A DNA stretch of 64,000 bases, from positions 186,001-250,000 of the forward strand of contig NZ_RKHO01000001.1 in NCBI RefSeq assembly GCF_003752505.1, in the 5' to 3' direction. The notes below the pieces were generated by a model, which was given only the letters and a program-made list of their open reading frames with translations, was not told the DNA's origin and searched no databases. Within the stretch, counting starts at the first letter, position 1, and every line of letters starts with the position of its first letter. The translations under genes were made by a program, and so were the position numbers. The stretch is from Nocardioides aurantiacus. Lineage in GTDB: Bacteria > Actinomycetota > Actinomycetes > Propionibacteriales > Nocardioidaceae. Positions 58,856-63,016 of the stretch are shown piece by piece.

Positions 58856-58972
58856 TCATTGTTGGTCATTTATAGAGCGACCTGTCCGGATAAGTCCGTT
58901 TTCGACAGTTGAGAACCGAACTTTCTGGTCAGCGACGTCGCGCACACCCGTCCACCGACCTACCCTGGCAGC

Positions 58973-60004
58973 ATGACCGCGATCTGGGAGTCCCCTGCCC
59001 TGGGCGGCATCCCCCTCGACCCGCGGGTCATGGCCGAGGAGGTCGCGGCCGACCTGGGCCTGCTGTCCGGCTCGGTCATCGAGGTCGTCCGGCTCCACCT
59101 CGAGGCGCTCGACAGCGCGTTGTCGCTCGGCGTCCCGGAGCTCCTGGCCGACCAGCTGCGGTGGCAGACCGTGCGGCTCGAGAGCGCCGGCGCCCCCTTC
59201 GGCCCCGAGGACGTCGACAAGGCGGTCCGCGAGGCGCTCGGACCCCACCTCACCCCGCGCCAGCTGGCCCAGGTCGAGGAGCTGCAGAACAGCGCGGCCG
59301 TGCTCGGCGCCAGTGGTGCCCACGCCGACTCGCTGGTCGCCCTGCCCGTCGGACCGGCCCACGACTACCTCGCGGCCGCCCTCGCCGGCCACCGCGACGA
59401 GGCGATCGCCGTGGTCCGCGAGGCGATGATGTCCGAGGTCAGCGTCGCCGACATCATGCTCGGCATCCTCCAGCCCGCCCAGGTCGAGCTCGGTCGGCTC
59501 TGGGAGGCGGGCGAGATCTCGATCGCCCACGAGCACTACACCACCGCCATCACCCAGCTCGCCCTGTCGCTGCTCTACCCGCGGCTGCTGCTCAACCGCA
59601 CCCTGCTGGGCAGGAGCGTCGTGGCGACCAGCGTCGGCTCGGAGGCCCACGAGGTGGGCATCCGGATGATCTCCGACCTCATGGAGCAGGCCGGGTGGCG
59701 CACCGCCTACCTCGGCGCCGACGTCCCGCACGCCGACGTCATCGAGCGGGTCGCGCAGCACCGCGCCGACGTGCTGGCCGTCTCGGCCACCATGGCCGGC
59801 CACATCCGCGGGGTCCGCGAGCTGATCACGCTGCTGCGGGCCGACCCGCGCTGCGCCGGCGTCCGCGTCCTCGTCGGAGGACGCCCGTTCACCATCAACC
59901 CACAGCTGGCCGACCTGGTCGGTGCCGACGGCTGGGCCCCCGGGGCCGCCGAGGCGCTCGAGATCTGCCGGACGTGGACGGAGGACAGGTCCCGTGCCCG
60001 TTGA
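58973..60004 (+). CDS. CarH-type cobalamin-binding sensor without DNA-binding domain
   Basis: A 343-residue cytosolic protein. Residues about 125-210 form the helical cap of B12-binding photoreceptors, with the exact W-x9-E-H motif (W177, E187, H188 in LWEAGEISIAHEHYTT). Residues about 213-335 form the Rossmann-type B12 domain: E-x-H-xx-G (EAHEVG, lower-ligand candidate H226), then SATM (271-274) and VGGRP (301-305). Unlike CarH/LitR it has no MerR HTH; the first 110 residues are an unrelated helical region. It overlaps a histidine kinase by 11 bp. It is probably the sensing partner of that kinase, possibly light-responsive through adenosylcobalamin. Photochemistry is inference. Confidence 0.85.
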   Translation: MTAIWESPALGGIPLDPRVMAEEVAADLGLLSGSVIEVVRLHLEALDSALSLGVPELLADQLRWQTVRLESAGAPFGPEDVDKAVREALGPHLTPRQLAQVEELQNSAAVLGASGAHADSLVALPVGPAHDYLAAALAGHRDEAIAVVREAMMSEVSVADIMLGILQPAQVELGRLWEAGEISIAHEHYTTAITQLALSLLYPRLLLNRTLLGRSVVATSVGSEAHEVGIRMISDLMEQAGWRTAYLGADVPHADVIERVAQHRADVLAVSATMAGHIRGVRELITLLRADPRCAGVRVLVGGRPFTINPQLADLVGADGWAPGAAEALEICRTWTEDRSRAR

Positions 60005-60761
60005 GGAGCCCGGACACGAGCTGCTCCTGAGGGAGCTGGGTCGCATCAACAGCGAGCTGGCCTCCCAGCGACGCCTCAGCGCCATGACGGTGCACGACCT
60101 CGGCAACCCCGCGCAGGTGATCATGGGGCTGAGCGAGCTGCTGCTCGACCACCCCACGCTCGACCCGTTCGTGCGCACCCGCGTGGAGCAGCTGCACCGC
60201 TCCGCGCTCACGATGTCGGCGCTGATCTCCGACCTCAACAACGGCTTCTCGATCGACGACCAGAACCACCTCGACGTGCAGCGCATCGACCTCGTCGAGC
60301 TGGTCACCTCGCTGGTGGAGCGTCAGCGGGTGCTGGCCAACGCCAAGGACATGACGATCCTGCTGCTGGTCGACCAGCCGCGTGACGCCGGCTGCTGGGT
60401 CGACGGCGACCCGGTCAAGCTGGAGCGCGCGCTGGGCAACCTGCTCGGCAACGCCATCAAGTTCTCCCCGCCGCGCAGCACCGTCTCGGTGGCGCTCGAC
60501 CGCGGGCTCGACAACGCCAAGATCGCCGTCCACGACGAGGGCCCCGGCATCAGCCGGCTCGGCCTGCAGCGCATCTTCGAGGTCTTCCACCGCGAGCGCG
60601 GCACCGACCACGTGCCGGGCCTGGGCCTCGGGCTGTTCATCACCAAGCAGATCGCCGAGAGCCACGGCGGCTCGGTCGACGCCCGCTCCGAGCCGGGCCG
60701 CGGCTCGACCTTCCTGCTCGAGATCCCGCTGGCCGTCGAGGCCTACGCCGACCTTGCCTGA
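59994..60761 (+). CDS. Small soluble histidine kinase partner of the B12 sensor
   Basis: A 255-residue kinase with no transmembrane or PAS domain. The dimerisation/phosphoacceptor helix has H34 in MTVHDLGNPAQVIMGLSELL. The catalytic domain has the N-box GNLLGNAIKFSP, D-box DEGPGIS, F-box IFEVFHRERG and G-box GLGLGLFITK. A short 28-residue N-terminal helix is the only non-kinase part, so it should rely on a partner for input. GTG 59994 overlaps the B12 gene by 11 bp. No response regulator gene follows in the window. Confidence 0.87.
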   Translation: MPVEEPGHELLLRELGRINSELASQRRLSAMTVHDLGNPAQVIMGLSELLLDHPTLDPFVRTRVEQLHRSALTMSALISDLNNGFSIDDQNHLDVQRIDLVELVTSLVERQRVLANAKDMTILLLVDQPRDAGCWVDGDPVKLERALGNLLGNAIKFSPPRSTVSVALDRGLDNAKIAVHDEGPGISRLGLQRIFEVFHRERGTDHVPGLGLGLFITKQIAESHGGSVDARSEPGRGSTFLLEIPLAVEAYADLA

Positions 60762-61824
60762 CCGGGTCGCTCCCCGCGACCTGCCCAGCACGGGACGCGG
60801 CGCGTGGGCCGAGCCCGGGGTCGAGGAGGTCGCGCCCGGCGTCCACCGGCTGCCGCTGCCGCTGCCGATGGACGGCCTGCGCGCGGTCAACGTCTACGTC
60901 GTCGAGGGCGAGGACGGCCTGACCCTGGTCGACGGCGGCTGGGCGATCCCGACCTCGCGCCAGGTCTTCGAGGACGGGCTGCGCCGGCTCGGGCACGCGC
61001 CCTCCGACGTACGCCGGTTCCTGGTCACCCACATGCACCGCGACCACTACACCCAGGCCCGCGTCCTCGGCACCGAGCTGGGCTGCCCGGTCGTGCTGGG
61101 CTCCGGCGAGCGGCCCAACCTCGCGAGCGTGCACGCCGACGCCGAGGCCGGCGACACCCGGCAGGCCGGCACCCACGCGCGGCTGCGCTCCGCCGGGGCC
61201 GAGCACCTGCACGAGGCGTGGCTGGAGCTGGCGCCGCGCCGTCCCGACGCCCTCGACGCCTACGCCGCCCCCGACACCTGGCTCGAGCACGACCAGGACC
61301 TCGACGTGGCCGGCCGTCGGCTGCGCGCCGTGGCGACGCCCGGGCACACCCGCGGCCACTACGTCTTCGCCGACGAGGCCGCCTCGCTGCTCTTCGCCGG
61401 CGACCACGTGCTCTCGACGATCACGCCCTCGATCGGGTTCGAGCCGGCGTACGTCCGGCAGCCGCTGCGCGACTACCTCTCCTCGCTCGCCAAGGTCCTG
61501 GCGCTGCCCGACCTCACGCTGCTGCCCGCCCACGGCCCGGTCACCGCCTCCTCCCACGCCCGCGTCCACGAGCTGCTCGAGCACCACGACGTGCGGCTCG
61601 CGCAGTCGCTCGAGGCCGTGCGCGCCGGCGCCCGCACGGCCTGGGAGGTGGCCTGCGCGCTGCCCTGGACCCGCCGCGAGCGACACATCGACGAGCTCGG
61701 CCCGTTCGACCAGGCGCTGGCCGCCTTCGAGACGCTCGCCCACCTCGAGCTGCTCGCGCTGCGGGCCGACCTCGCCCGGGTCGCGGGGGACACCGTGCAG
61801 TTCGCGCTCCCGCGCCGCGGCTAG
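60754..61824 (+). CDS. MBL-fold metallohydrolase downstream of the B12-kinase pair
   Basis: A 356-residue metallo-beta-lactamase-fold protein. The metal motif HxHxDH is intact (FLVTHMHRDHYTQAR, residues 93-98), with further ligands in TPGHTRGHYVFADE, FAGDHVLS and PAHGP. A 90-residue helical C-terminus (SLEAVRAGARTAWEVACALP) is the LACTB2-like cap. The start is uncertain: TTG 60754 overlaps the kinase stop by 8 bp, and no ATG or GTG exists in the proper place. The function is unclear; close packing suggests translation with the sensor pair. Confidence 0.82.
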   Translation: MPDRVAPRDLPSTGRGAWAEPGVEEVAPGVHRLPLPLPMDGLRAVNVYVVEGEDGLTLVDGGWAIPTSRQVFEDGLRRLGHAPSDVRRFLVTHMHRDHYTQARVLGTELGCPVVLGSGERPNLASVHADAEAGDTRQAGTHARLRSAGAEHLHEAWLELAPRRPDALDAYAAPDTWLEHDQDLDVAGRRLRAVATPGHTRGHYVFADEAASLLFAGDHVLSTITPSIGFEPAYVRQPLRDYLSSLAKVLALPDLTLLPAHGPVTASSHARVHELLEHHDVRLAQSLEAVRAGARTAWEVACALPWTRRERHIDELGPFDQALAAFETLAHLELLALRADLARVAGDTVQFALPRRG

Positions 61825-61837
61825 GGTGGGCAGCGTC

Positions 61838-61937
61838 CGACAGGGGAGCGCCGGGGGCCAGTGAGCCGGAGGCGCTGAGAGTGCGGGAGAGCCGCAGACC
61901 CTCGAACCTGCTCCGGTTAGTACCGGCGAAGGAAGTC
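61838..61937 (+). promoter_or_regulatory. TPP riboswitch (THI element)
   Basis: The conserved blocks of the thiamine pyrophosphate riboswitch are all present: GGGGAGC (P1/P2 side), GCTGAGAG at 61874, a short variable stem with GCGGGAG and CCGCAGACC, then GAACCTG at 61914 and CCGGTTAGTACCGGCG before GGAAG. It lies 14 bp before thiB, whose ribosome site (AAGGAG) follows immediately. In this position, TPP binding would repress translation or transcription of the transporter genes. Confidence 0.93.
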
Positions 61938-61951
61938 GAAGGAGACTCCCG

Positions 61952-63016
61952 ATGCGCATCCGCGTGCGTTCCCTGTCCACCCTGCTCACCGTCGGTGCCC
62001 TCACCGCGACCCTGGCCGCGTGCGGCTCGTCGGGATCCTCCGACGCCGGCGCGACCGAGGATCGCACGACCCTCACCGTCGTCACCCACGACAGCTGGGC
62101 CGTCCCCGACGACGTGCTCGCCGCGTTCACCGAGCAGAGCGGCATCACGGTGAAGGTCCAGCCGCAGGGTGACGCGGGCCAGCTGACCAACAAGCTGGTG
62201 CTGACCAAGGACTCGCCGCTGGCCGACGGGGTCTACGGCATCGACAACACCTTCGGGTCCCGCGCCGTCGACGAGGGCGTGCTCGCGGCGTACGACGCGG
62301 ACCTGCCCGCCTCGGCCGAGCAGCTCCGGCTCCCCGGCGGCGAGGACCGGCTGACCCCGGTCGACTACAGCGACGTGTGCGTCAACGTCGACGACAGCTG
62401 GTTCGAGAAGGAGGGCAAGCAGCCGCCCACGGACCTCGACGACCTGACCGACCCGGCCTACGAGGGCCTGTTCGTGACCCCCGGCGCCACCACCTCCTCG
62501 CCGGGCCTGGCCTTCCTGCTCGCCACCGTGGCCGCCAAGGGCGCCGACTGGCCCGACTACTGGCAGGCGCTGGTCGACAACGGCGCCAAGGTGACCTCCG
62601 GCTGGTCCGACGCCTACGAGGTCGACTTCACCGCCGGCGGCGGCGGGGGCGACCGGCCGATCGTGCTGTCCTACTCCTCCTCGCCGCCGTTCACCGTGCC
62701 CGAGGGCGGCACCGAGCCGACCACGAGCGCGCTGCTGGACACCTGCTTCCGACAGGTGGAGTACGCCGGGGTGCTGGCCGGCGCCGAGAACCCCGAGGGC
62801 ATGCAGGAGTTCATCGACTTCATGCTCGGGCGGGAGTTCCAGCAGGCGCTGCCCGACACCATGTACGTCTACCCCGTCGACGCCGACGTGGCCCTGCCCG
62901 AGGCCTGGGCGGAGTTCGCCCCGGCGGCCGAGGAGCCGCTCGCCGTCGAGCCGGCCGACCTCGACGCGAACCGCGAGAAGTGGCTGCGCGAGTGGCGCGA
63001 CATCGTCACGCAGTAG
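61952..63016 (+). CDS. thiB: Thiamine ABC transporter, substrate-binding lipoprotein
   Basis: A 354-residue lipoprotein with lipobox LAAC (Cys24) and a type 2 periplasmic-binding fold: LTVVTHDSWAVPDDVLAAFT, YGIDNTFGSRAVDEGVLAAY, VDYSDVCVNVDDSWFEK, SYSSSPPFTVPEGG and MQEFIDFMLGREFQQALPDT. The sequence matches ThiB/TbpA, which bind thiamine, TMP and TPP. ATG 61952 follows AAGGAG. The TPP riboswitch upstream supports the assignment. Its 3' end overlaps thiP by 25 bp. Confidence 0.93.
   Translation: MRIRVRSLSTLLTVGALTATLAACGSSGSSDAGATEDRTTLTVVTHDSWAVPDDVLAAFTEQSGITVKVQPQGDAGQLTNKLVLTKDSPLADGVYGIDNTFGSRAVDEGVLAAYDADLPASAEQLRLPGGEDRLTPVDYSDVCVNVDDSWFEKEGKQPPTDLDDLTDPAYEGLFVTPGATTSSPGLAFLLATVAAKGADWPDYWQALVDNGAKVTSGWSDAYEVDFTAGGGGGDRPIVLSYSSSPPFTVPEGGTEPTTSALLDTCFRQVEYAGVLAGAENPEGMQEFIDFMLGREFQQALPDTMYVYPVDADVALPEAWAEFAPAAEEPLAVEPADLDANREKWLREWRDIVTQ

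Follow-up and report, generated by a model that had tools for sequence, protein, structure and literature searches.

Photocobilins, which bind both adenosylcobalamin (AdoCbl) and biliverdin, are among the closest described systems to the gene pair considered here. Such globin+B12 photoreceptors have been described and crystallised, with structures in 2024 (PMC10979010). In the literature considered, AdoCbl photochemistry has been shown to control DNA-binding repressors and a diguanylate cyclase, and isolated photocobilins alter the activity of a separate diguanylate cyclase domain through contact (PMC10979010). The work on CarH and photocobilins is also the basis for light-driven release of the adenosyl group and for movement of the E-H helix (PMC10979010, PMC11796333). 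The stretch analysed here (the window) comprises 64,000 nt of Nocardioides aurantiacus DNA (contig NZ_RKHO01000001.1, positions 186,001 to 250,000) and belongs to a genome of 4.06 Mb in one contig. It contains a sensor gene of the globin+B12 kind that overlaps the gene of a soluble histidine kinase. On balance we believe that the two form a split photosensory kinase, in which a B12-based light sensor acts in trans on a separate kinase, the sensor being a photocobilin derivative that keeps only the AdoCbl photochemistry.

The sensor and its B12-binding domain

The sensor gene encodes a globin domain followed by a B12-binding domain. Its features are as follows (window coordinates).

58973..60004, + strand: sensor gene, 343 aa, N-terminal globin domain and C-terminal B12-binding domain
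58973..59338, + strand: phycobiliprotein-like globin (photoglobin) domain, five helices, residues 1-122
59084..59086, + strand: Val38, in ungapped register to W64; SasPcob has its bilin-contacting Asp here (D270; D of the phycobiliprotein CxRD)
59162..59164, + strand: Trp64, equivalent in position to SasPcob Trp296
59354..59587, + strand: four-helix cap bundle of the B12 domain, residues 128-205
59501..59503, + strand: Trp177 (in GRLW), the Trp of W-x9-EH that stacks on the adenosyl group
59531..59536, + strand: Glu187-His188 of the W-x9-EH motif
59609..59998, + strand: Rossmann-type B12-binding domain, residues 213-342
59648..59650, + strand: His226, predicted lower cobalt ligand, aligned with His108 of SasPcob

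Pfam matches above the cut-off were found for B12-binding_2 (1.3e-15) and B12-binding (PF02310, 4.5e-26). The motifs that an earlier note on this DNA had read in the 343-aa frame were all confirmed: the cap residues W177, E187 and H188, the E-x-H-xx-G segment (E224-A-H226-EV-G229), S271-x-x-M274 and G302-G303. The sensor thus carries the W-(x9/10)-EH and E/DxH motifs of photocobilins. Because W177, E187, H188 and H226 show no variation across 11 homologues chosen by similarity and not by motif, this set of motifs is not a product of chance. A wider alignment was made from 73 full-length candidates, of which 64 rows were kept after removal of the copies L008, L010 and L015 and of L069, L071, L072, L088, L109 and the second L045 copy; the globin alignment has 63 rows, L116 being additionally dropped. 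In the 64-row set the invariance of the W, E and H residues comes partly from selection, as the scan patterns contained them; H226 (invariant, 64/64) and GG lay outside these patterns.

The light-responsive cobalamin signature is present in its GxxW (G174RLW177), EH (E187H188) and GxxxP (G248ADVP252) parts. The GxxH part is changed to S223EAH226, with His226 itself kept; Gly stands at position 223 in 43/64 rows. In relatives, the AdoCbl-bound form absorbs at about 540 nm with a shoulder near 560 nm, and 530-nm light abolishes this while a band near 356 nm arises (PMC11796333). The Pfam scan listed no helix-turn-helix (HTH) in the sensor at E up to 1, as the earlier note had stated. The N-terminus, where CarH and LitR have a MerR-type HTH, is occupied by the globin, and the NCBIfam CarH score is 43.7 bits against a cut-off of 400. 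The supply of AdoCbl is likely, since adenosyltransferase PF01923 was found in 9/9 genomes.

The same domain could serve to sense cobalamin (AdoCbl level, or redox or ligand state) instead of light, with loss of AdoCbl changing the kinase. The same cap would tell AdoCbl from other cobalamins, and AppA and AerR, which are redox- or B12-linked regulators, have the same fold. We nevertheless consider this unlikely, since W-x9-EH and GxxxP are part of the signature published for light-responsive domains, and a control protein lacking it bound hydroxocobalamin only (PMC11796333).

The globin domain and the bilin site in the Nocardioidaceae clade

The earlier note recorded no sensor-type domain besides the B12 domain and so missed the globin, a second sensor-type domain in residues 1-122. 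The assignment was made with the family profile and VIA-align, and the predicted fold agrees with a fused phycobiliprotein-like globin as in photocobilins. The closest PDB entries of the sensor are also photocobilins.

In SasPcob, Asp270 and Trp296 lie near the bilin, with Trp296 close to the D ring (PMC10979010); chain residues D264, W290 and His102 correspond to Asp270, Trp296 and His108 of that paper (offset 6). The register runs without gaps between the CxxD motif and the conserved Trp, and the Asp column gives His in AbPcob, matching what PMC10979010 reports. Across the 64 rows, Asp is found in 42, Cys in 17 and Trp in 62. The window sensor keeps Trp64 and has Val38 at the Asp position and Val35 at the Cys position; both valines are identical in three close orthologues (genomes G089, G084 and G004). 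Judged from the alignment, the loss of Asp lowers the expectation of bilin binding rather than the claim to the photocobilin family, as AbPcob, which is counted as a photocobilin, also lacks Asp and has His.

The maximum-likelihood tree placed the window in a clade of nine Nocardioidaceae rows (support 100/99), and Asp is missing from all nine. The Asp-bearing sensors of N. szechwanensis and G047 fall in a distant clade of the same tree. Among the matches listed, the closest named relatives are Marmoricola sp. Leaf446, with 97% identity in the sensor and 99.6% in the kinase, and Nocardioides aequoreus (77%). Proteins of the window type are rare: at E 1e-25 they were found in 3/394 genomes of the class (own genome counted; one match covers the B12 part only), and 9/149 genomes of the family sample reached this threshold. 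Heme oxygenase PF01126, the sole biliverdin source looked for, was present in 0/7 genomes of the window clade and in both Asp-bearing Nocardioidaceae genomes (G047 and G128), so that within the family the link between Asp and PF01126 is 2/2 for Asp-bearing versus 0/7 for Asp-less genomes. It was found in 7/57 carrier genomes overall (57 of 62 carriers searched) and in 2/24 genomes of the genus, neither with a full-length sensor match. From these residues, the window clade seems to have lost the site for a second light-absorbing pigment (bilin).

Against the globin assignment, the globin part of the window row alone had no Pfam match, and Foldseek with the isolated globin domain gave no match below E 0.001. 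Outside the Nocardioidaceae the link between Asp and PF01126 is reversed (2/39 Asp rows versus 3/9 other rows); the missing PF01126 is therefore used as supporting evidence only, and within this family.

It is quite unlikely, in our view, that the two-chromophore photocobilin was retained, with the globin binding biliverdin or a different linear tetrapyrrole through alternative contacts and red light also acting on the kinase. The globin fold is predicted to be intact and is under constraint, Trp64 is kept, and AbPcob, which has His in place of the Asp, is a weak bilin binder that is still red-light responsive (PMC10979010). In the wider set, 37/41 Asp-bearing rows come from genomes without PF01126, so a bilin is conceivable even where this family is missing. 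These points are set against two apolar valines shared by the window and its three orthologues, an Asp lost throughout the clade, and clade genomes that all lack the heme oxygenase family.

Two further sets of sensor genes were seen. The window genome has a paralogue of 48% identity (L006 7652-8839, - strand; C1:1723651-1724838) that has about 60 additional aa at its C-terminus, which match no Pfam family. Genome G040 (C1:1790235-1793470; L012/L121) carries a tandem array made up of two full-length sensor genes and a third, weaker match. No kinase was found beside the paralogue or near the tandem copies.

Pairing with a separate kinase, and the surrounding genes

The kinase gene and its main features are given below.

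59994..60761, + strand: soluble histidine kinase, 255 aa, GTG start, 11-bp overlap with the sensor gene; HisKA 4.3e-8 and HATPase_c 3.8e-26, both over the Pfam cut-off
60045..60059, + strand: I-N-S-E-L segment 5' of the H box, candidate docking helix, common to many partner kinases
60093..60095, + strand: His34, predicted phospho-acceptor, invariant in the 43-row kinase alignment

The overlap, the catalytic boxes and the lack of a sensor domain of the kinase's own, all in the earlier note, were confirmed. The protein has a HisKA domain with the phospho-acceptor His and a HATPase_c domain with N, G1 and G2 boxes, as expected of a HisKA-class kinase. A scan of genome contigs returned at least 535 candidate stretches encoding relatives of the sensor, and the best 80 loci were analysed. 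A kinase was counted as adjacent when it lay on the same strand within 110 nt between open-frame edges; the kinase profile was built from six kinases of the same set and may miss distant ones. A same-strand kinase is adjacent or fused at 44/80 loci in many phyla (downstream at 37, only upstream at 6, fused at 1; none at 36, some of them near contig ends). If only the 61 loci whose frame includes the globin are counted, the numbers are 28, 5, 1 and 27. The pair is retained in G089, G084, G004 and G081, and purifying selection was found on the sensor and on the kinase in three orthologue pairs. The earlier proposal of a CarH-like sensor with a separate soluble kinase is borne out as regards the pairing, with the two fused in L013 and L043. 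The sensor is not merely an HTH-less relative of CarH, as it is a globin+B12 protein with photocobilins nearest in the PDB.

In the 43 aligned partner kinases, HATPase_c was found in 43 and HisKA in 41; PAS families occur in few members only. Most partner kinase frames are about 400-450 aa long, and the 255-aa window kinase begins almost at its R-I-N-S-E-L segment. The L/I-N-N/S-E-L motif occurs in 29/47 partner kinases with a recognised H box versus 2/28 other kinases at the same loci (p = 2e-6, an optimistic value because the pattern was set after inspection); one of these two is the kinase upstream of the L085 sensor. The L013 fusion in G023 (718-2502, - strand) is a globin-B12-kinase protein of 595 aa, whose H-box His appears to be Arg; from this residue it is perhaps a pseudokinase. 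One of the 43 partner kinases carries an ABM domain (PF03992, 2.9e-14). The ABM family includes heme-degrading enzymes.

That the sensor serves a B12-dependent methyltransferase as its corrinoid protein, with the kinase a chance neighbour, is highly improbable, although fold scores alone do not exclude it: this role was rejected because the NCBIfam MtgC/MtbC scores (78.1 of 370 and 75.4 of 350 bits) are far below the cut-offs, photocobilins score above methyltransferase proteins in the PDB and a distinct corrinoid protein, flanked by methyltransferase-like genes, is encoded elsewhere in the genome, and it is further opposed by the kinase pairing at more than half of the loci and by the lack of a methyltransferase among the neighbouring open reading frames seen. 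The separate cluster (L007 5597-9612) comprises a trimethylamine-methyltransferase-like gene, the corrinoid protein and a pterin-type methyltransferase, all named from sequence.

Receiver domains adjoin the pair in other genomes. At 7/8 Azospirillum loci (L047, L055, L064, L065, L066, L069 and L071) the frame immediately upstream of the sensor frame encodes a receiver domain on the same strand, and the two frames overlap or are at most 141 nt apart; in L053 the receiver is 1.8 kb upstream. In each of these frames the receiver occupies the end, which fits single-domain regulators, and the row of receiver gene, sensor and kinase looks like a complete split phosphorelay. In G081 a convergent single-domain regulator adjoins the kinase. 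Because of these neighbours, the data suggest a single-domain response regulator as the output of the pair. The co-occurrence with a regulator that the earlier note proposed to look for was found in Azospirillum and G081, whereas a search of the window genome with the G081 regulator (P0003) singled out no dedicated one. This query matched in 22/24 genomes of the genus at E 1e-20, and the window genome has 28 receiver domains, so a specific partner cannot be named.

The next gene on the same strand encodes a hydrolase.

60754..61824, + strand: metallo-beta-lactamase (MBL)-fold hydrolase, co-directional; Lactamase_B 3.2e-24 (Pfam, over cut-off)

Read from its TTG start, it overlaps the kinase frame by 8 bp, and this start is backed by alignment from residue 1 in G089 (94% identity) and G084 (70%). 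The hydrolase is perhaps on the same transcript as the pair. In N. aequoreus (L038), a search of the 11 kb surrounding the pair gave no match to it, and there the thiamine-type binding gene follows the kinase. For this reason the hydrolase is outside the conserved unit, which is the sensor and kinase. Further downstream in the window are a TPP riboswitch (RF00059, 58.1 bits, 61832-61951, + strand) and, after it, a thiamine-type ABC substrate-binding protein (61952-63016, named from sequence). Upstream, a TAYCCT-like -10 stretch at 58962-58973 lies a few bases 5' of the sensor ATG and is partly retained in orthologues; the sensor transcript is possibly leaderless. An alignment of four sequences, inspected for a conserved upstream operator, showed little besides this stretch near the ATG.

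Proposed mechanism and comparison with known systems

In the split photosensory kinase that we propose, the sensor would bind AdoCbl base-off/His-on, between His226 and the cap with W177 and E187-H188. Light would break the Co-C bond, and the adenosyl group would leave. The cap (E-H) helix and the dimer interface would then shift and alter the contact with the separate kinase, probably at the I-N-S-E-L helix just before the phospho-acceptor His34. Control would run from sensor to kinase, whose autophosphorylation or phosphatase activity would change, and the signal may go to an unlinked, perhaps single-domain response regulator. Action in trans is plausible because isolated photocobilins act on a separate cyclase domain, which is a direct precedent. 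The sensor presumably descends from two-chromophore photocobilins, and in the Nocardioidaceae clade the globin would most likely have lost bilin binding and now serve as a structural or docking module.

A wider proposal is offered more tentatively. Split two-chromophore photoreceptor kinases may be widespread, with a globin-B12 sensor docking on the L-N-N-E-L helix of a separate kinase; one Nocardioidaceae clade may have been stripped to a B12-only sensor, with the globin holding or gating a minimal kinase. Should AdoCbl photochemistry directly control a separate histidine kinase, it would be linked to two-component signalling in a compact green-light kinase switch. The clade whose bilin site holds Val is a natural comparison for what the globin contributes after bilin loss.

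The earlier description of an undescribed system was too strong, because globin+B12 photoreceptors had already been reported and crystallised (PMC10979010). The parts are of known kinds. Among the titles and abstract beginnings that searches of open-licence papers listed, none named the split pair of sensor and kinase with the helix motif common to the kinases, or the clade without the bilin site.

Photocobilins (SasPcob and AbPcob; PDB 8J2W, 8J2X, 8J2Y) share with the window sensor an AdoCbl-type B12 domain with W-EH and ExH and a phycobiliprotein-like globin, and can act in trans when isolated. In the window sensor, however, the domain order of SasPcob and AbPcob is reversed, with the globin first, valines stand at the bilin Asp and Cys positions, and the neighbour is a histidine kinase instead of a cyclase. 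A 2022 photoglobin paper, whose title points to signal-transduction systems, reportedly dealt with proteins in which a globin and a B12 domain are combined with signal-transduction domains. CarH/LitR and CtMerR have the same AdoCbl cap with W-x9-EH, the lower His and GxxxP, but the window sensor has a globin, no HTH or other DNA-binding domain and no second His beside W177. By analogy, the gene pair is best compared with H-NOX/HnoK, known as a standalone prosthetic-group sensor encoded beside a separate histidine kinase that it regulates. That system uses heme and NO where the window pair would use AdoCbl and light, and its sensor fold is unrelated; it is an analogue and not a member of the same family.
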